A stretch of 36,005 nt of DNA from Fretibacterium sp. (GCA_024695065.1 JAILIX010000031.1:1-36005); one strand, 5' to 3'; positions 10,552-20,235 are shown, numbered from the stretch's first letter. Translations and numbers: made by a program. Notes: generated from the letters alone by a model not told the origin.

Positions 10552-10588
10552 ACGCGGAGGCTTCCAGGGGAGCCCCCGCGTTTTTTTT
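10552..10588 (+). terminator. Intrinsic terminator after cbpA
   Basis: ACGCGG-A-GGCT pairs with AGCC-CCCGCGT-type 3' arm (one mismatch), followed by eight T from 10581. A clear end for the chaperone unit. Confidence 0.85.
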
Positions 10589-10686
10589 ACAGCATTCAGC
10601 CCCCCAGCGCCGTGTCCAGGGCCTGACTCAGCCCTCCATGAAAACGCACCGGAGAGGAATAACCATAAAAGCATGGTATGTTAAGG

Positions 10687-10729: not shown

Positions 10730-11368
10730 GTGAAAAAGTTTGTTTTTGCGTTTTTCGCGGTTCTGGCACTGTCTCTGGGCTGCGCGTTTGCGGATGAGCC
10801 GGCGGCGCAGGAGGCAGAGGATAAGACGCTCAAAAAAGACGCGGCAGGGAACCCGATTGATTTAAAGACAAAGGACGGGCTTCGCATCGCCTACATGGGG
10901 ACGTTCCGCATTATGGCCGCGCCGGAAGAGGGAGGAGAGGAGAAGGTCACAGACAAAATCGTCTCCGTCTTCATGGTTAAGGCGGACAGGGACATGACCC
11001 TTTGGGTGAACGCCCAGGGCGGTGTGGACACAAAGACAAACAAGTTCAGCTGCAACGACGACTGGTGTCATATTGCCGGCAACAGCAACAGGCAGGTGGA
11101 AATCCTTGAGGATATCTGGATGCGCGTGGAGTTCTTCCATGTCCTGCCTCTGGATAAATTCAGCGAGCTGCCCCGCATTGGCCGCTTTTTCGAATTTGCC
11201 TTCGCAGAGGCCGGGAAAGAGCCCTGCAAACTGGTCTACAAAAAAATCCGTGTTCAGCCATGGAAGGTCTGGAAGGAAGTTGAGAAAAAGGTTATCGCCA
11301 TGGAGGAGGATGAGGAGGATATCGAAGACGGACAATCCGGGGATGCGCAAAAGGCTGAGGGGGCATAA
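10730..11368 (+). CDS. Secreted protein of unknown family (short paralogue)
   Basis: 212 aa from GTG 10730, chosen because CAGGAGGG lies 8-9 nt upstream and the next residues (VKKFVFAFFAVLALSLGCAFA) form a textbook Sec signal cleaved near residue 21. I do not recognise the family. The mature part has an AYMGTFR motif, VSVFMVKADRDMTLW, a GGVDTKTNKF-WCHIAGN segment and EDIWMRVEFFHVLPLDKF, then a basic stretch and a very acidic C-terminus (EEDEEDIEDG). All these motifs recur in residues 35-172 of the next protein, so the two are tandem paralogues. Stop and next start are 2 nt apart, so they are co-translated. Probably periplasmic or surface located. Confidence 0.8.
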   Translation: MKKFVFAFFAVLALSLGCAFADEPAAQEAEDKTLKKDAAGNPIDLKTKDGLRIAYMGTFRIMAAPEEGGEEKVTDKIVSVFMVKADRDMTLWVNAQGGVDTKTNKFSCNDDWCHIAGNSNRQVEILEDIWMRVEFFHVLPLDKFSELPRIGRFFEFAFAEAGKEPCKLVYKKIRVQPWKVWKEVEKKVIAMEEDEEDIEDGQSGDAQKAEGA

Positions 11369-11370
11369 AC

Positions 11371-13452
11371 ATGAAAAAGGCTTTCCTTGTTTTTCTGGCG
11401 GCGGCCGCGGTCCTGACGCTCATTCCCTGCTGCGTGTCCGCAGAACAGAATGCGGCAGCCTGTGAAACAGTGAAAAAGGATGCGGCGGGCAACGCCGTTG
11501 AACTGAGGACAAAGGACGGACTTCATATTGCCTATATGGGAACGTTCCGCCTTGCGGACGAAACGGAGAAGCCCACAAATGATGTTGTCTCCGTCTTCAT
11601 GGTCAGGGCCGACAGGGATATGACCCTCTGGACGGACACCGGCGGCGGTGTGGATACAAAGACAAACAAGTTTAATTACAGGGACAGCAACTGGTGCCAC
11701 ATTGCCGGGAACAACACCAGACAGGTCGATATTCTGGAGGATATCTGGATGCGCGTGGAGTTCTTCCACGTCCTGCCTCTGGATAAATTCGGCGAGCTGC
11801 CCCGCGTCGGACGCTTCAATGAGTTTGCCTTCGCCGAGGCCGGCCACCCCGCCACGAAACTGGTTTACCGCAAGATAAGGCTTCAGCCCGCCTCCGCCCT
11901 GAAGGCGCTGGAACCGGCTCTCGTCGCCATAGAGGACAACGACTCGGATGAGATAGAGATCCCCACAGCCTCAAAACCCAGGACGAAGGAGAACGGGAAT
12001 AAGCCGAAGCCTGATACAGCAAAGTCTGATTCAGCAACGCCTGATGCCGCGAAGTCTGAGGGCGGGAAGACCGGTGAGAAATCCGCTCCACAATCCGCTG
12101 CCGGCAAAATCTGGTTGGGACCTGTTCAGGTGACCGGGGACAACAGGGAAGACCTGGCAAAGGCGCTGGGTCTTGACAAAGGGACAATCACCTGCACGCC
12201 CGCTTCCGGAGGGAAACCGGCACAGCTGAACCTGTCCGGGGTCACCATTGAGAACCTGTTTACGGACCGTTACGACACCAGCCCCAGCCCGGCCTCATAC
12301 CACTGGTGGTCCTATGCGGCAGTGTACTCCGAGGAGGACCTGATCATCAACGTCAGCGGGCTTAACCTGATTGATACCAGCGGCTTCAGCGTAAAAGGGG
12401 CAAACCTGCACGGGATATTCTCAAGGGGGAACCTCACGATCCAGGGCGACGGCAGTTTCATCGTCCACAACGGCAATGTGACGAACAACAACAGCGTGGA
12501 TTACCGCGACAGCATTGCCGTGTATGCGGCGGGGACCCTGACTGTGAAGGACAGCGTATCGCTCCTGGCAGAGGGAGGCAGAAGCGAGCGCAACAGTGCA
12601 GGCCTGCGGGGCAACAGGGGAATCCGCATTGACGGCAGCGCTGAGGTTATCGCCTCCGGCGGCCTGGCCCTCTGCAGCTTTGGCTGCTGGGAAGGGCCCG
12701 TGGAGGTTCACGGCGGGACGCTCTCGATGTTTGGGGAAATGAGGGCCCTCGAGGGCACTCTGCTCCTTAAAGACGGTTTTACCGCCGTTACGAACACGGA
12801 GACGCCGAACGCCGAGGACAATAAAGAGAAGACCGCCGGGAGCCTCATGCCGGGAACTTACTCAGAGGAGGCAAGGACATTCAGGTATATCAAGGTCTCC
12901 GCGATGCCTGCGTCCGTGCCTCAGCCCAGTGGGAAACCTGAACCCCAGCCCGCTCCCCAAAAGGCACCGGTTCCGAAGCCCGCCGCAAAGCCCGCGCCCA
13001 GGACAGCTCCTGAGCCGGAAAAGCCGGCTGCCTCTCAAAAAACACTGACCAGGGAGAACTTCGCCGATTCTCTGTGGACGGCTGTGTCTCAGGAGTCGCT
13101 GAAAACGGCCCTCAGTTCCGGCGCGGATATCAACGCCGCAAACAGCTGGGGGAACACGGCGCTGCTTGTTGCCGTAGTGCGCAGAGAGCCGGATATCGCC
13201 TTCATCAACGCCCTGATAAAGTCCGGCGCGGATCTCAACATGGGGGATGGTTTTGGCTGCACTGCGCTGATTCGGTCCGTCAGGCGGTCCGACCCCAGGC
13301 CGGAGGTCATTGCCGCGCTGCTGGACGCCGGAGCGGACACGGCGGTGAAGGACCAGTGGGGCCACACCGCTGCCGATTACGCACAGAGGAATGGAAAATT
13401 AAAAGGCACAGATGTGCTGAAGCGCCTGGAGGCAGCCAATAAGCAGCCCTGA
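11371..13452 (+). CDS. Secreted modular protein: paralogue domain, beta-helix, ankyrin repeats
   Basis: 693 aa. Order: signal peptide (1-24); a copy of the preceding protein's domain (about 35-172); Lys/Pro/Asp/Ala-rich linker (200-242) with a KPDTAKSD-type imperfect repeat; a Gly/Asn-rich region (about 245-475) with short rungs such as GIFSRGNLTIQGDGSFIVHN and AVYAAGTLTVKDS that looks like a right-handed beta-helix of the kind seen in carbohydrate-binding domain proteins; a second Pro/Ala/Lys linker (513-556); and three to four ankyrin repeats (565-690) ending in KLKGTDVLKRLEAA. The ankyrin end resembles that of the next gene. Function unknown; an exported adhesion or scaffold role is inference. 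Start ATG 11371 lies just after the previous stop. Confidence 0.8.
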   Translation: MKKAFLVFLAAAAVLTLIPCCVSAEQNAAACETVKKDAAGNAVELRTKDGLHIAYMGTFRLADETEKPTNDVVSVFMVRADRDMTLWTDTGGGVDTKTNKFNYRDSNWCHIAGNNTRQVDILEDIWMRVEFFHVLPLDKFGELPRVGRFNEFAFAEAGHPATKLVYRKIRLQPASALKALEPALVAIEDNDSDEIEIPTASKPRTKENGNKPKPDTAKSDSATPDAAKSEGGKTGEKSAPQSAAGKIWLGPVQVTGDNREDLAKALGLDKGTITCTPASGGKPAQLNLSGVTIENLFTDRYDTSPSPASYHWWSYAAVYSEEDLIINVSGLNLIDTSGFSVKGANLHGIFSRGNLTIQGDGSFIVHNGNVTNNNSVDYRDSIAVYAAGTLTVKDSVSLLAEGGRSERNSAGLRGNRGIRIDGSAEVIASGGLALCSFGCWEGPVEVHGGTLSMFGEMRALEGTLLLKDGFTAVTNTETPNAEDNKEKTAGSLMPGTYSEEARTFRYIKVSAMPASVPQPSGKPEPQPAPQKAPVPKPAAKPAPRTAPEPEKPAASQKTLTRENFADSLWTAVSQESLKTALSSGADINAANSWGNTALLVAVVRREPDIAFINALIKSGADLNMGDGFGCTALIRSVRRSDPRPEVIAALLDAGADTAVKDQWGHTAADYAQRNGKLKGTDVLKRLEAANKQP

Positions 13453-13510
13453 CCTGCCGGACCGGTAAAATCAAATCGAAGCTGCTGCAGATGAAAGGAG
13501 ATGCTGCGTC

Positions 13511-15907
13511 ATGAAAAAAATTTTGTGTGGTTTGCTGTGCGTGCTTTTGTCGGTCCCGGCTTTCGGGGCCATTTCCGATAAAGAATTTCTGAGACTCTGC
13601 CGGAAAGGCAAGGCGGAGGAGATCGCAGCCGCGATCAGGGACGGAGCAAACCTCAGCGCCAGGAATAAGCAGAAGGAGACGCCCGTGATCATCGCAGCGG
13701 CATACAACACTTATGAGGCCGTCAAGGTTCTGGTGGATGCCGGCGCGGACCTGAAGGCCGTGGGCAGGGACGGCGAGACGGCGCTCATGGCGGCCTCAGT
13801 GAACAAGGATCCTAAAATTGTCTCAATGCTGCTTCAGGCCGGGGCGGATATTAAAACCAGAGCCAGGGATAACGTCTCGGTGATGATGGCTGCCGCGGTC
13901 AACGAAAACCCCGAAGTCCCGGCTTTACTGATAAAGGCCGGGGCGGATGTGAACACCGCAACGGAGAAAGAGGGCCTCACGCCGCTGTTTGTTGCCGCCG
14001 GGAACAATAACAATCCGGAGGTCTTCAGGATTCTGCTGGATGCCGGCGCCAACGCTGCCCTGAAGGACAAGAAGGGCCGGACAGTGCTTATGGCTGCCGC
14101 GCGGAACCGGAAGACTTCGGCTGAAATCGTCGACCTTCTCATCAAGGCCGGGGCCGACATCAACGCGGTCAACGCGGAGGGCAGCACAGCTCTGGACATC
14201 GCGGCGGACAGGCCCAATCCGGCAGCTTTTATCGCTCTGACAAGAGCCGGCGCCGATGCCGGCAAGGTCGATAAGGATGATATTTCGTATATGCTGAAGT
14301 CCACCGCCGAGAAAGGGAACGCCGATATTATCGCGGATCTGGTGAAATCCGGGGCGGATGTGAATGCAGCGGATCAGAGAGGCGAAACGCTCCTGATGAA
14401 GATCGTTGACTCCCGCGAACCCAATCAGGCGGTGATTGACGCACTGATAAAAGCCGGCGCAAACGTCAACGCGAAGGACTCCAGTGACAGAACTGCCCTT
14501 TCTCTGGCGGCCGAAAAAAGGAACCCGGCCCCAGAACTTGTCCACGCGCTGATTAAAGCCGGGGCCGATGTCAATCACAGAGACGGCTACGGCCAGACGA
14601 TTTTGATGAAAGCCGTTGGCCGCGGCGGACCGGAAGTTATTGCTGCGCTGATTAAAGCCGGGGCGGATATCCATGCTGTGGATTCCCGCGGGCGGACGGC
14701 GCTGCATATAGCCATCTCGCGCAGCCCCGAAGCCATTGGCCTGCTGGCAAAGGCCGGGGCCGATGTCAACGCGGCGGACGACAAGGGCCGGACACTCCTG
14801 ATGAACGCCCTCAGAAGCAATTCCGATCTCAAGACAATCAGGGCGCTTATCCAGGCCGGAGCGGATGTCAACGCCGCCGCCAGGGACGGGAACTGGAACG
14901 TGCTGAATACGGCGATACAATTCTGCGGCAGACAGGAAACGATAGACGCTGTCCTTAACGCCGGGGCCGACGTCAACGCGGCGACCAGTGACGGCTATAG
15001 GCCAGCCTTCTTCATCTTCAACAGGAGCAAGCCTCTTGAGCTTCTGAATTCCCTTATCGCCGCGGGACTGGACGTGAACACTGCCCAAAAAGACGGCGGG
15101 ACGCTTTTGATGAGGGCTGTGCAGAACCCGGACAAAGACTGCCGCGGCATTGTGGAGATGCTGCTTAAGGCGGGAGCGGACCCCAACGCGGCCTGTCACA
15201 AAGATGGGCGCACAGTCCTCATGCAGGCTGTGAGTCAGCAAAAGCTGGACGCCGACGTCATCACCATGCTGCTCAAAGGCGGAGCGGACCCCAACGCGGC
15301 TCTTAAGGACGGGACAACGGCACTGATGATCGCTGTGAAGCAAAACCCGGGAGGGGACATTATCCGTGCTCTGGCCGGAGGAGGAGCCAACCTCAACGCT
15401 GTGAACAGCAACAAAAGGTCGGCGCTTCACCTGGCGGCTCAAGAGGGCAGGCGAAGTCTGGAAGCCATCCGCGCTCTCATCGCCGCCGGAGCGGACGTGA
15501 ATCTGAGGGACAACCGGAACTATACGGCTTTGATGTATGCCCGCGGCGACGACGTGGAGGGGATCAGAGCTCTGCTGGACGCCGGGACGGACGTTCACGT
15601 CAGGGCCCCGGAGCAACGCACGGCGCTGTCGCTCGCGGGCACGAACAAAAATACCGTCCCGGAGGCCGTCACCCTTCTTCTGAAGGCCGGTCTGGACCCG
15701 AACGAGACGGATAAATTCGGGGATACTGTGCTGATGGCTGCCGCCCGCAACGTCGGCAACCCGGGGGTCATCGAGGTGCTGCTGGACGCCGGAGCGGACG
15801 CAGGCGTAAAGAATCCGGGCGGCAAGCGGGCCTTTGATTTCGCTAAAAAAAACAAGAAACTCGCCGGTTCCAACGCCCTGAAACGCCTGGAGCAGGCTGC
15901 CAGATAG
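13511..15907 (+). CDS. Secreted ankyrin-repeat protein (about 22 repeats)
   Basis: 798 aa. Signal peptide MKKILCGLLCVLLSVPAFGA (1-20), then essentially nothing but ankyrin repeats of 33-37 residues with the LIKAGADVNAxDxxGRTALMxA consensus; I count about 22. The end (AKKNKKLAGSNALKRLEQA) matches the C-terminus of the preceding protein, suggesting a shared capping helix. Ankyrin solenoids bind proteins; an exported one without catalytic domain likely acts as a scaffold or binding protein in the periplasm or on the cell surface. AAAGGAG precedes ATG 13511 by 10 nt. The 58-nt gap to the upstream gene has no terminator, so the genes are probably one operon. Confidence 0.88.
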   Translation: MKKILCGLLCVLLSVPAFGAISDKEFLRLCRKGKAEEIAAAIRDGANLSARNKQKETPVIIAAAYNTYEAVKVLVDAGADLKAVGRDGETALMAASVNKDPKIVSMLLQAGADIKTRARDNVSVMMAAAVNENPEVPALLIKAGADVNTATEKEGLTPLFVAAGNNNNPEVFRILLDAGANAALKDKKGRTVLMAAARNRKTSAEIVDLLIKAGADINAVNAEGSTALDIAADRPNPAAFIALTRAGADAGKVDKDDISYMLKSTAEKGNADIIADLVKSGADVNAADQRGETLLMKIVDSREPNQAVIDALIKAGANVNAKDSSDRTALSLAAEKRNPAPELVHALIKAGADVNHRDGYGQTILMKAVGRGGPEVIAALIKAGADIHAVDSRGRTALHIAISRSPEAIGLLAKAGADVNAADDKGRTLLMNALRSNSDLKTIRALIQAGADVNAAARDGNWNVLNTAIQFCGRQETIDAVLNAGADVNAATSDGYRPAFFIFNRSKPLELLNSLIAAGLDVNTAQKDGGTLLMRAVQNPDKDCRGIVEMLLKAGADPNAACHKDGRTVLMQAVSQQKLDADVITMLLKGGADPNAALKDGTTALMIAVKQNPGGDIIRALAGGGANLNAVNSNKRSALHLAAQEGRRSLEAIRALIAAGADVNLRDNRNYTALMYARGDDVEGIRALLDAGTDVHVRAPEQRTALSLAGTNKNTVPEAVTLLLKAGLDPNETDKFGDTVLMAAARNVGNPGVIEVLLDAGADAGVKNPGGKRAFDFAKKNKKLAGSNALKRLEQAAR

Positions 15908-15920
15908 GTGTTTTTAATCC

Positions 15921-15942
15921 ACGGGGCCGCCAAAGGCCCCGT
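15921..15942 (+). terminator. Hairpin after the ankyrin gene
   Basis: ACGGGGCC pairs with GGCCCCGT around GCCAAA (8 bp). The bases that follow (TCACCCTTTAT) are not a real T-tract, so it may only attenuate or protect the upstream mRNA end rather than separate the next gene. Confidence 0.5.
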
Positions 15943-15983
15943 TCACCCTTTATCAGCAGGGCTGTCGCTAAAGGGAGGGAATC

Positions 15984-17042
15984 ATGAGCTACGGTTTTTC
16001 AGTTTTGATGTTCTGTTTTTCCGCGCTGCTTCTGATTTATGCCGGGTTAGTCTCTCTGGGATTGACAGGGCTGATTCCAAAACAATGGGCCGTCCATATG
16101 AGCGATCCCCAAACCTACGCCCGGAACTTTGCCAAAATCCTTGCACTCACGGCTCTGGCTCCCGCGCTCAGCGGCCTTGCAGGGCTGTTTGGGGACGTCG
16201 AAAGGAACCCCTTTGTGCCGCTGCTGACCTTGATCCTGGGGATTGCAGCAGCCCTCTGGCTGGGGGTGCGCCTCACTGAGAAAAAGCTGTTATCCTCCAG
16301 TCAGGCCGCTGCCGTTCCCGACGAAGACGCCGAAGAAATTGAAGAAGAAATTGAAGAAGACGAACCCATCGAGCCAGCGGCCGGTATGCCGGCTTTTGAT
16401 GAGGCATTCCCCGGGCTCTGCCGCTGGCTTGCCCTGAGCCTGCTTCTGATGACAGGATTCGCGTGGGTTACGGCGTTCCGGCTGTTTGATCCGATGGCGG
16501 ACGTTTTGGGGTATGGATTCTTCGCGCTGTGGGGCGGCGCAATCATCGCCGGCGCTGTGGGCGCATCCCTTCTGCGGAAGCGCATACGGGACCTTGAGCG
16601 CGGAACGGCGCTGATCTTTCTGATGCTTTTCAGCCTTCTGACGGGCTTTATCCTCTCCATAACGATGCTGCCCTATTCCCAGGCCACGGTTGCTCAGGTG
16701 TATCTTCCGCCTCTGGCGATGTTCGCGCTGATAAGCCTGTATTCCGGAATCAGCGGCAGCGGCAGTTTCTCCTCGCTGCTTTTATGGGGGCTGGCTGCCG
16801 CTCTGGGGCTCAGGTTTTATCCTGGGACCTCGTGGGCGGCGTTCGCACTGAGTGTTGTGGTGATCCTTATCTTCGTTGCTTTGGCGGGCAAAGGCATGGA
16901 TGAAGCCCGGGCCGCCGCCGCTGAAGCCCCGGACCCCGGACAGACTGCCGTCACAGGCGCCCTGTCGTTTTTCATCGGTCTCATGTTATGCATCTCATTA
17001 TGGATACTCCTGGGGAGCATTTTTTCCAGAGACAGGAAATAA
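15984..17042 (+). CDS. Polytopic membrane protein of unknown function
   Basis: 352 aa, family not recognised. I count about ten hydrophobic segments: three before a strongly acidic loop (about residues 110-133, with EEIEEEIEEDEPIEP), and about seven after it, the last ending at the C-terminus. No transport or catalytic motif is visible. AAGGGAGGG precedes the ATG by 4-5 nt. It follows the secreted ankyrin genes and is followed 19 nt later by a zinc-ribbon membrane protein, so it probably belongs with them functionally. The acidic loop could be a docking or cation-binding site; that is speculation. Confidence 0.75.
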   Translation: MSYGFSVLMFCFSALLLIYAGLVSLGLTGLIPKQWAVHMSDPQTYARNFAKILALTALAPALSGLAGLFGDVERNPFVPLLTLILGIAAALWLGVRLTEKKLLSSSQAAAVPDEDAEEIEEEIEEDEPIEPAAGMPAFDEAFPGLCRWLALSLLLMTGFAWVTAFRLFDPMADVLGYGFFALWGGAIIAGAVGASLLRKRIRDLERGTALIFLMLFSLLTGFILSITMLPYSQATVAQVYLPPLAMFALISLYSGISGSGSFSSLLLWGLAAALGLRFYPGTSWAAFALSVVVILIFVALAGKGMDEARAAAAEAPDPGQTAVTGALSFFIGLMLCISLWILLGSIFSRDRK

Positions 17043-17061
17043 CAGAATAAGGAGCGATATC

Positions 17062-17793
17062 ATGGCGAAAAAAAGGCTTGGGTACGGCGATTTTTACTGC
17101 TGGAACTGCGGAAAGAATATCGAGAAAGGACATGACAGCTGTCCGTTCTGCGGCGCGGAATACGGGGGGGATGAAAAGTTCGGAGATGTTCCGTCGCCGG
17201 GCGCCGGAGGCGTGGGCTGGTCCCATCAGGAGAATCACCCCTCCTTCGAGGCCTCCCACCGGCGGAACCGCAGGATGTTCCAGATATTCATGGTCATTCT
17301 GAGCCTGGGTATAGGCTTTATCCTGTTTGTTCTTCCGGGAGAGCTGGAATTTAACGAGGAGGGACTGAAGATATACGCCGGGGTTCTGGCCATCGTCTGG
17401 GCCATTGACCTGATCTGGTACTTTGTCTCCAACAAGAGCAAAAAAGGCTGGGAAGGGGCTGTCATCGGCAAGGAGAAAGAGGAATACACGAGAGAGATCA
17501 GGGACGAGGACAACGACACCACGAGGACGGAACACCACACCCGCTACATCGTCCATTTCCGGAAGGATGACGGCAAAAGGGAGAAGCTGACCGTCACGGA
17601 CAGCCCGGAGTGGTATGACTATCTGAACGAAGGTGACCGCGTCCGGTATCACGGGAAGAAGTCCATGAACTACTACGAAAAATACGACAAGTCCCACGAC
17701 GAGTTTATCCCCTGCGCCGGCTGCGGCTCCCTCCGGGACGCCCGGGAAAAATTCTGCGGGCGCTGCGGCTGCATCATTCTGAAAGCCCGGTAA
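17062..17793 (+). CDS. Membrane protein with N- and C-terminal zinc ribbons
   Basis: 243 aa from ATG 17062 (AGGAG 8 nt upstream). Two zinc-ribbon motifs bracket the protein: C13/C16/C27/C30 near the start and C218/C221/C232/C235 at the end. Two membrane helices lie at about 74-95 and 103-122. Between the second helix and the last ribbon is a charged, beta-rich domain (about 125-205) with a TVTDSPEWYDYLNEGDRVRYHG stretch, here described in part, that suggests an SH3-like fold (DUF3592/DUF7489-type in appearance). Function unknown. It closes the same-strand run begun by the paralogue pair; the convergent nuclease gene ends 15 nt away. Confidence 0.75.
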   Translation: MAKKRLGYGDFYCWNCGKNIEKGHDSCPFCGAEYGGDEKFGDVPSPGAGGVGWSHQENHPSFEASHRRNRRMFQIFMVILSLGIGFILFVLPGELEFNEEGLKIYAGVLAIVWAIDLIWYFVSNKSKKGWEGAVIGKEKEEYTREIRDEDNDTTRTEHHTRYIVHFRKDDGKREKLTVTDSPEWYDYLNEGDRVRYHGKKSMNYYEKYDKSHDEFIPCAGCGSLRDAREKFCGRCGCIILKAR

Positions 17794-17808: not shown

Positions 17809-18639
17809 TTACACTCCCTCCGCCTCCCCGCAGGGGGACGGGGGGATTTCTTCTCCGCGTATCTTCTCTCTCAGCTGTTCCTCAAATTCAATTTTTGATT
17901 TATAGGCCTGACGTTCCTCCTTTTGTGTGAGCTCCCGGAGTTTCCTCTTCAGGAAGAAAAGGATAACTCCGGCGAACGCCGGGTATATCTCCTGGCTTTC
18001 TATGGCCTTTATCCGCCCTTCGATGTAAGCCCGGCTGACCTTCCCCCCCTGACGCCTCATCCCCCGGACATAGGATCTGTAGGCTTCACGCCTTGCCCGC
18101 AGAAGCCCTGTTGATGTATCCAGGCCATCCAGCCCGTTGAGGTGGAGGACATCGTTGATGTCCCTTTCAAGGACTTTGTCCTCCGGGTAGGTGTATATCC
18201 TCCCCTTCTCGCTGTACCGGATCTTGTCCATGTGGTTTTTGTCATAAGGGTCTATCGTGATTTCCCGGTCTCCCTTTGAGGCGTCGCAGCACAGGATATG
18301 CCGTCCTTCCGGCCAGTCCTCTTTGTCTGCTGTCCGTCCCCCGTCACAGACCCCGATCATATTCTCATAGTCCAGAACCCGGTCCAGATTCTTGTCCACG
18401 GGGGCCCGATGTTCAATGGTTGTGCTGCCCGCGTCCCCTATCCGCCTCATGCAGTAACCGCAAAGCCCATGCTGCTCCCTGATGAGACTTTTACGGATTT
18501 TGGACTTATCCAGACTGTCAAAAGCCCTTCTCGCGGCCTGGGGGTCCTGCCTGTCAAGAAGGTACTTCCGCTCCGTTTTAACGCGGCTGATGTTGTCGGC
18601 AGCCTCTTTTGAGGGCGGCGATTTCCGGATGTAAAGCAT
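17809..18639 (-). CDS. ptuB: HNH endonuclease, Septu defence subunit PtuB-like
   Basis: 276 aa. Seen: CGYC (C60, C63), then TTIEHRAP with E76-H77, YENMIGVC with N93 and C98, and a later CC pair (117-118). This is the Cys-ligated HNH (beta-beta-alpha metal) arrangement of the TIGR02646/PtuB group, nucleases that cut DNA or tRNA when paired with an ATPase. It starts 2 nt after the stop of the ATPase gene, with GAGGA inside that gene as ribosome site, so the two are made together. No reverse transcriptase is adjacent, which argues against a retron and for a stand-alone Septu system. A Lys/Glu-rich C-terminal third has no motif I recognise. Confidence 0.75.
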   Translation of the reverse strand: MLYIRKSPPSKEAADNISRVKTERKYLLDRQDPQAARRAFDSLDKSKIRKSLIREQHGLCGYCMRRIGDAGSTTIEHRAPVDKNLDRVLDYENMIGVCDGGRTADKEDWPEGRHILCCDASKGDREITIDPYDKNHMDKIRYSEKGRIYTYPEDKVLERDINDVLHLNGLDGLDTSTGLLRARREAYRSYVRGMRRQGGKVSRAYIEGRIKAIESQEIYPAFAGVILFFLKRKLRELTQKEERQAYKSKIEFEEQLREKIRGEEIPPSPCGEAEGV

Positions 18640-18641
18640 GG

Positions 18642-19913
18642 CTATTCCTCAACAATCCACTTGTTGACTTCAAAGAATTCCCTCAGCCGCTTTGACGTGA
18701 CAGAGTCCCTGCCCAGTTTCTCCTCCGCCGCTTCCACGATTTTCTCAGCCTTCTGCAGATCATTTTCGTCAAGGGCCCCTTCAATTTCCTGCCGCCATTT
18801 CCGGAGCTCCTGCGGCATATCCATGCTGCCCTGCGTCAGTTCCACAACGTCTCCGATGTTGTAACCGTAGGCATCCGGAAGGTACTTCACGATGTCAGGG
18901 GTCTCCATGAGAATCAGCTTCGCCTCCTCCGCCGAGGAGATGACGATGGGCGAGTGCGTGGCAATGATGAACTGAACATTGGGAAATGTCGCCCGCAGCG
19001 CCCCAAGGATTCTCCACTGCCAGCGGGGGTGAAGATGGATGTCGATTTCATCGATCAGCACAACGCCCTCCAAAGCTCCCGGATCCTTCAGCCGCGGATT
19101 CAGAAGAACCGTCCGGTAGGCAAGTTCCATGATAAGGCACAGGATACTCTGATAGCCGGCGCTCAGGTTATGGATGAGATAACCCTTTTCGCCCTCGGAG
19201 AACACAAGGCGGCTTAATTTGGGCGAGAAATCAACCTGCGGCGCGGTTTCACTTTCTTCAAGCTCTTTGATGAATTTTGATACGATACGTTTAAATAAAC
19301 GATATTCTTCAATTTCATGCCTGTATTTATACTCCGCGTAATCCATGTTTGCGCACCAGTTCTGGACGGTGTCAAACACTTTCTGATCGTTCAGGCAGTC
19401 CACATTCAGGCAGTCCGCGTAGCCCTGCCGCCGCTCCACCGGACCTCCCGGCTGCTTCACCTCCTGAGTGGTGTTGAAGAAGCCTCTTACAGCGCTTTGA
19501 TAAGAGAGCAGAGGCAGGGAAGCGTCTTTGTCATTCACCAGCTCCTTCATTTTATTCGCCGCATCGAAATTGCTGGTCTCAGAGCTGTTCAGCTCTCTGG
19601 TCTGCTGGTATGTGTACTCCTCATTGCAGAAATCCAGCGTGCAGCCTATGGCTGCCGGCAGAAACTGTTCCATGCTTTCCGTTACATCCCCGACACGGCT
19701 GGAAACCATCCGGATGTCCTGTCCCTCCATCGTCCTGGCCTCCTCGGGCCAGAAACAGGAAAACAAGTGGCCCAGCGCCACACTCAGCCCCTTTAACAGC
19801 GATGACTTTCCTGCGCCGTTGTCGCCGATGATGAGATTGATCCCCGGCCCGAAGTCCAGCGCCAGGTCCTCCATACCTCTGTAATTCACAAGATGTATGT
19901 TTTTAATCTGCAT
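18642..19913 (-). CDS. ptuA: AAA/ABC-type ATPase, Septu defence subunit PtuA-like
   Basis: 423 aa. Seen: RecF/SMC-like N-terminus IKNIHLVNYRGMEDL, Walker A GDNGAGKSS (30-38), an ABC signature LSAGYQS (250-256), Walker B VVLIDEIDIHLHP (D288, E289) and the switch histidine in ATHSP (H320). This is the predicted AAA ATPase family found in PtuA, Old and retron effectors, without a Toprim domain. With the HNH partner directly downstream, Septu is the best fit: the ATPase senses phage and licenses the nuclease. ATG 19913 has GGAGG 8 nt upstream; GTG 19922 overlaps that site and is less likely. An AT-rich stretch at 20100-20135 probably holds the promoter. Confidence 0.75.
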   Translation of the reverse strand: MQIKNIHLVNYRGMEDLALDFGPGINLIIGDNGAGKSSLLKGLSVALGHLFSCFWPEEARTMEGQDIRMVSSRVGDVTESMEQFLPAAIGCTLDFCNEEYTYQQTRELNSSETSNFDAANKMKELVNDKDASLPLLSYQSAVRGFFNTTQEVKQPGGPVERRQGYADCLNVDCLNDQKVFDTVQNWCANMDYAEYKYRHEIEEYRLFKRIVSKFIKELEESETAPQVDFSPKLSRLVFSEGEKGYLIHNLSAGYQSILCLIMELAYRTVLLNPRLKDPGALEGVVLIDEIDIHLHPRWQWRILGALRATFPNVQFIIATHSPIVISSAEEAKLILMETPDIVKYLPDAYGYNIGDVVELTQGSMDMPQELRKWRQEIEGALDENDLQKAEKIVEAAEEKLGRDSVTSKRLREFFEVNKWIVEE

Positions 19914-20235
19914 TTTCAGCACCTCCGTCTGATGATGACAGCTGCTCCCTGCCGTGTCCCTGCATTCAGAACGTTCGTATACTGGCGGTGAAGTTCCTCC
20001 GGCGTGCCCCCGTTCCGGCAGCCGTCAGACTCAGGAAGCCTTCCAAAGCAACAATGCCCGTTTTCGTCATGCAGCCTCTGAAAGTTATCAATTCCTTTAT
20101 TTTCTTTGCATATTTTATCATATAAAAAATAAGGACCTCAAAAGACGAGGCGCTTCCGACTGTCAAAAAACCGGCGCAAAAATCAGAGCGTATAATATAT
20201 TAGATTTTTACGTATCCCCGGGGAGGAATTGCCGA
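19914..20235. other. Divergent intergenic region between ptuA and esterase
   Basis: Contains the start regions of both genes. Bases 20095-20135 are markedly AT-rich and hold minus-strand -10-like sites (TAAAAT) for ptuA. On the plus strand, a consensus TATAAT at 20191-20196 precedes the esterase start by 40 nt, without a clear -35. No gene is convincing between 19923 and 20190. Confidence 0.5.
20191..20196 (+). promoter_or_regulatory. -10 box for the esterase gene
   Basis: TATAAT, part of TATAATATATTAG. No TTGACA-like -35 at the proper spacing, so confidence is limited. Confidence 0.45.

Follow-up and report, generated by a model that had tools for sequence, protein, structure and literature searches.

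A candidate cluster of exported, domain-shuffled proteins and two membrane proteins in Fretibacterium sp.

The locus and its five products

The stretch of DNA analysed here, referred to as the window (36,005 nucleotides, Fretibacterium sp., GCA_024695065.1 JAILIX010000031.1:1-36005), spans in full contig C53 of the metagenome-assembled genome G000 (2.0 Mb). Between positions 10730 and 17793 it contains five plus-strand ORFs, G1 to G5 (Table 1), separated by gaps of 2, 58, 76 and 19 bp, which confirms the close same-strand arrangement proposed in an earlier sequence-only reading of this DNA. The probable intrinsic terminator located 3' of dnaJ was read from the sequence (an inverted-repeat search reported it on the minus strand only), and its position indicates that G1–G5 begin a new transcription unit. 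The five genes are probably carried on a single transcript. No sigma-70 consensus promoter was found when searched for at the locus, and an Rfam search of the window gave no match.

Table 1. Features of the five-gene locus (nucleotide positions in the window; the G2 modules are given in residues)
Feature	Position	Strand	Description
Probable intrinsic terminator 3' of dnaJ	10554-10589	+	GC-rich hairpin, one mismatch, then T run
G1	10730-11368	+	212 aa; GTG start preceded by GGAGG; signal peptide, one SYD domain, acidic tail
G2	11371-13452	+	693 aa; exported fusion of SYD, beta-solenoid-like module (predicted) and ankyrin
G2 modules		+	SYD ~31-190; linker; beta-solenoid-like (predicted) ~247-475; Pro-rich linker; three ankyrin repeats plus cap ~561-691
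G3	13511-15907	+	798 aa; exported ankyrin solenoid, ~21 repeats
G4	15984-17042	+	352 aa; membrane protein, 3-TM module, acidic loop, 7-TM Bax-inhibitor-1-like module
G5	17062-17793	+	243 aa; membrane protein, two TM helices, two zinc ribbons

Comparison with a second genome of the same genus (G001) gave dN/dS values of 0.17 for G2, 0.21 for G3, 0.20 and 0.29 for the two halves of G4, and 0.17 for G5. G2–G5 are therefore real genes under purifying selection. The values for four flanking genes were lower (0.06–0.15).

A mobile or defensive nature of the locus was also considered. PADLOC models matched the five proteins only through generic, ankyrin-driven profiles, and a defence system was rejected as none of the matches went beyond ankyrin. 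A phage or plasmid origin was likewise rejected: no SYD or G5 relatives were confirmed in viral contigs, PHROG gave no match for G1, G4 or G5, and no G5 was found on plasmids. Convergent with the five genes and directly downstream of them (17809-19922, minus strand) lies a Septu-type pair, consisting of a PtuB-like HNH protein and a PtuA-like ATPase (PADLOC, 149 and 375 bits, respectively); a PtuB fragment, 76% identical, is present in G002, a further genome of the genus, near the same dnaJ locus (L182 11289-11603).

As the sequence-only reading had stated, the first three products carry signal peptides. In each of G1, G2 and G3 a hydrophobic signal spans residues 1–26 and ends, as read by eye, in a signal-peptidase-I-like motif (AFA-DE, VSA-EQ and AFG-AI, respectively). 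The same reading had linked these proteins through two shared pieces, a paralogue domain and an ankyrin C-terminal cap, and only one of them held. The N-terminus of G2 matches G1 at 65% identity. The cap, however, is 45% identical between G2 and G3, and its identity to ankyrin proteins encoded at other places in the genome is up to 46–47%; being equally similar to those, it was rejected as a specific link between G2 and G3.

The C-terminus of G2 contains three ankyrin repeats (PF12796, 49 bits), and G3 is ankyrin throughout (PF12796, 332 bits in ten stretches), with a full-length homologue, 69–70% identical, in G001. G3, with its repeats behind a signal peptide, has the make-up of an exported ankyrin protein. 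G000 encodes about eight ankyrin proteins including G3, and six further exported ones, their signal peptides judged by eye, are encoded on five other contigs. In Bdellovibrio, the ankyrin protein Bd3460 is exported to the periplasm, where it binds other proteins, namely periplasmic enzymes, and exported ankyrin proteins can act as periplasmic DD-endopeptidase inhibitors (PMC4686830). G3 is similar to Bd3460 in combining ankyrin repeats with signal-peptide export, but it has about 21 repeats instead of six. Moreover, an endopeptidase gene adjoins Bd3460, whereas neither the window nor the surroundings of the corresponding set in G001 contain a recognisable peptidoglycan endopeptidase gene.

The region of G2 between SYD and the ankyrin repeats matches PF14262 (Cthe_2159) with 19.5 bits, under the cut-off of 25.8. 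This profile gave no match at E ≤ 0.1 on the G001 homologue of G2, and the module had no match among PDB sequences. An AlphaFold model of full-length G2 (mean pLDDT 65, with low-confidence linkers) presents a separate sandwich, repetitive short strands at 247–475 and ankyrin-like helices at 561–691; the strands at 247–475 are regular, many blocks having a pLDDT of 70–93. In the structure search with G2, the matches listed fit the SYD sandwich only and none reached E ≤ 0.001. A beta-helix identity for the module was not adopted from this search, as no beta-helix appeared among the matches listed. Residues 247–475 are predicted to be beta-solenoid-like and would probably bind polysaccharide. Both cellulose and polygalacturonic acid are ligands of Cthe_2159 beta-helix proteins (PMC6712302). 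The G2 module shares with these proteins, which occur in rumen Clostridia and anaerobic fungi, a repetitive pattern predicted to be a beta-solenoid, export, a gut or rumen setting and the weak profile match, but differs from them in scoring under the Pfam cut-off and in lying between a predicted Ig-like domain and ankyrin repeats.

The two remaining proteins correspond to the ten-helix protein with an acidic loop (G4) and the two-helix protein with two zinc ribbons (G5) of the sequence-only reading. G4 has about ten hydrophobic helices, arranged as a 3-TM module (residues 1–98), an acidic loop (DEDAEEIEEEIEEDE) and a 7-TM module (~139–352). Its seven-helix C-terminal half passes the curated cut-off of the Bax inhibitor-1 family (Bax1-I, PF01027; YetJ, YccA) with 35.2 versus 34.1 bits, and the G001 counterpart scores 46.2 bits. 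In G001 the two halves are separate genes, encoding a 94-aa 3-helix protein and a 227-aa Bax1-I protein, and they are also separate genes elsewhere outside the genus; G4 is a fusion of what G001 encodes as two genes. In contrast to the family, G4 lacks both gate aspartates and is joined to the 3-helix module and acidic loop. An alignment of G4 and four relatives shows these aspartates (in TAWD and YLDF; D171 and D195 of YetJ) replaced by G/N and G, respectively. Calcium leak by the known mechanism is therefore unlikely, and it is doubtful that G4 is a BI-1-type calcium-leak channel. A canonical PF01027 paralogue in the same genome (190 bits) matches YetJ in the PDB and retains the gate aspartates. 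At L096, L104 and L105, members of the G4-type clade are present while the rest of the set is not. At L105 3618-4608 and L104 5200-6200, a Bax1-I-like gene devoid of the gate aspartates lies beside a conserved 106-aa gene whose product resembles, by eye, L-rhamnose mutarotase; L105 additionally has sugar ABC transporter neighbours.

G5 consists of a zinc ribbon, two TM helices, a soluble stretch similar to DUF2500/DUF7489, at a level below the cut-off, and a second zinc ribbon, the ribbons having the form CxxC...CxxC. It is found away from SYD in G057, G058 and G067 (71% identity). Distant homologues (33% identity) with unrelated neighbours are present in genus g3 (L107 7481-8173, L108 7390-8082). 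The absence of any known family, claimed earlier for the locus as a whole, holds for the domain shared by G1 and G2 but not for G3, an exported ankyrin protein, nor for G4, a Bax1-I relative.

The SYD domain across Synergistota

SYD is the name given here to the domain common to G1 and the N-terminus of G2. It had no domain-level match in Pfam, NCBIfam or PHROG, and none among PDB sequences, which were searched also with a profile. A profile search of Synergistota was positive in 38 of 188 genomes. The domain was found only in this phylum; a scan of genome_contigs with closer sequences reached close relatives only, those with names being mostly Synergistaceae or Synergistales from goat and deer. 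AlphaFold, run on 35 SYD sequences, produced a sandwich of about nine strands plus a C-terminal helix (pLDDT 83), according to which SYD is predicted to be an Ig-like beta-sandwich. Foldseek gave no match to this model at E ≤ 0.001. The nearest folds include Ig-like appendage domains, MPT63 and DUF4352-type lipoproteins, with best E-values of 1.5e-3 (a phage lipoprotein), 9e-3 (DUF4352) and 1.3e-2 (MPT63). The secreted Ig-like domains of the DUF4352 and MPT63 type, from bacterial and phage proteins, rank with the structures that the SYD model resembles best, but SYD is set apart from them by the lack of a profile match, by the lack of a structure match at that threshold and by its tandem exported genes, seen in Synergistota only.

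SYD genes are usually in tandem across the phylum. In the sister genus they mostly stand alone or as tandem pairs, and neither ankyrin genes nor G4 or G5 lie near them. The tree places G1, G2 and the G001 fusion in one clade (SH-aLRT 97), indicating that the SYD pair arose by independent duplication within the genus; the alternative, that G1 and G2 are orthologues of the two tandem copies of the sister genus, was rejected on the same grounds.

Other SYD proteins are fused to different partners: a C-type lectin in G067 and G060 (PF00059, 58–60 bits) and PDZ in G007 (80 bits). In G067 and G060 the lectin fusions are accompanied by a stand-alone exported C-type-lectin-like protein (L091 11030-13838, L093 115-1581). 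In nine genomes from two families (G006, G007, G009, G011, G013, G027, G060, G067 and G169), SYD adjoins two conserved genes, one encoding about 430 aa, with no Pfam match, and the other about 290 aa, with weak TPR matches. This gene pair is the conserved neighbourhood of SYD, and it differs from the arrangement in the window. Seven of the nine genomes have two more genes in common (~370 and ~400 aa), one of which matches FlgT_N weakly, and in the cluster of G067 and G060 CsgG-type proteins take their place (69 bits in G067). A family name was sought for the conserved tandem-SYD cluster and none was found. Its loci include L091 6390-9885, L141 4093-7372 and L145 3406-6742, and also L093, L139, L140, L142, L143 and L144. 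In G067, the regions L091 3100-5796 and 14305-17129 encode CsgG-domain/TPR proteins together with exported proteins that look FlgT-like by eye, and the SYD cluster also contains two exported ankyrin proteins; among the other SYD-bearing loci examined, this genome was the only one with ankyrin genes nearby.

Distribution of the set within the genus

To validate the five genes as a set, the sequence-only reading had proposed a gene-neighbourhood search, and its outcome was mixed. All five families are together at one locus (L074) in G001, but SYD, the solenoid module and G5 are absent from the congeneric G002 and G003 (81% and 100% complete, respectively). In genomes outside the genus the parts are found apart from one another, the five genes never being found together. 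The whole set is carried by two genomes only, G000 and G001. The order in G001 is the end of G1, G2, the 94-aa 3-helix gene, the 227-aa Bax1-I gene, G5, a 153-aa exported protein, a 196-aa ankyrin protein and G3, so that two extra genes stand between G5 and the giant ankyrin gene at the far end. G1 is represented there by its last 19 residues (KVIAMEEDEDVGTDDEAKD*), at the contig edge and directly upstream of G2.

The chromosomal site also differs. In G000 the set follows leuA-leuCD-leuB-dnaJ-dnaJ, where G001, G002 and G003 have other genes, and in G001 it lies beside ackA-htpG, a site only partly readable in G000, whose ackA-htpG contig stops just past htpG. As the set is at different sites in the two genomes, its adjacency is unlikely to be mere leftover synteny. 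A joint function is favoured by its presence as a unit at two sites and its absence as a unit elsewhere in the genus, two genomes being a thin basis.

Interpretation of the cluster

Our tentative preference is to regard the locus as a cluster specific to the genus, made up of exported binding proteins with shuffled domains and of two inner-membrane genes co-inherited with them. SYD would be the N-terminal module of exported proteins whose other end binds a ligand. In G2, SYD is joined to the solenoid-like module and then, through a Pro-rich linker of envelope type, to the short ankyrin unit. G2 would most likely be an adaptor in the periplasm or at the cell surface, with SYD docking to the envelope or perhaps pairing with G1, the solenoid possibly holding a glycan and the ankyrin unit possibly recruiting a protein. 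In that compartment, the long exported ankyrin solenoid of G3 would probably hold on to protein clients. G4 and G5 would be inner-membrane proteins carried along, which may take part in handling exported proteins. The exported binding scaffold with membrane partners suggested by the sequence-only reading survives here in its components, three exported binding-type proteins and two membrane proteins, but not as a general system.

It is also quite conceivable, if not the reading we adopt, that the genes have no joint function, a tandem SYD pair, one exported ankyrin member and two unrelated inner-membrane genes having come to lie side by side in a variable region. The separate occurrence of the parts outside the genus would be expected of such a neighbourhood, as would the different gene order in G000 and G001, with two extra genes between G5 and G3 in the latter, and the six additional exported ankyrin proteins in the genome. 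The flank in G000 is variable, the leu-dnaJ segment being conserved in G001–G003 with a different sequel, and a PtuAB-type pair is adjacent. Nevertheless, two chromosomal sites carry the five genes as a group, and G002 and G003 lack them jointly. The inhibitory activity of exported ankyrin proteins on periplasmic DD-endopeptidases (PMC4686830), together with the several exported ankyrin paralogues per genome, raises the idea of a self-protection set, in which the ankyrin proteins would block envelope-degrading enzymes as Bd3460 does and the remainder would place them at the wall. We consider this improbable: neither the cluster nor its flanks showed a recognisable gene for a peptidoglycan hydrolase or a toxin, no defence model matched except the generic ankyrin profiles, and the repeat number of G3 is far from the six of Bd3460.

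A unit centred on G4, for membrane-protein quality control or ion homeostasis with the exported proteins as sensors, could be proposed from the Bax1-I scores of G4 and its G001 counterpart, both above the cut-off. It is very improbable, given that the gate aspartates are replaced in all five clade sequences examined, that the same genome has a canonical copy and that the clade occurs without the rest of the set. A more ambitious extension of the preferred cluster reading, rather unlikely in our judgement, is that SYD is the docking module of an undescribed, Synergistota-wide envelope display platform, in which lectin, PDZ and solenoid-ankyrin fusions would add specificities and from whose ancestral operon the version in the window would have departed, gaining membrane genes of its own. 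This extension rests on the tandem SYD proteins that accompany the conserved gene pair in distant relatives.

The envelope biology of Synergistota has been little studied. An exported domain that was seen in this phylum alone, with varied binding fusions, offers a starting point for learning what its gut and rumen members bind, and the gene pair conserved next to SYD in distant relatives is a clear experimental target.
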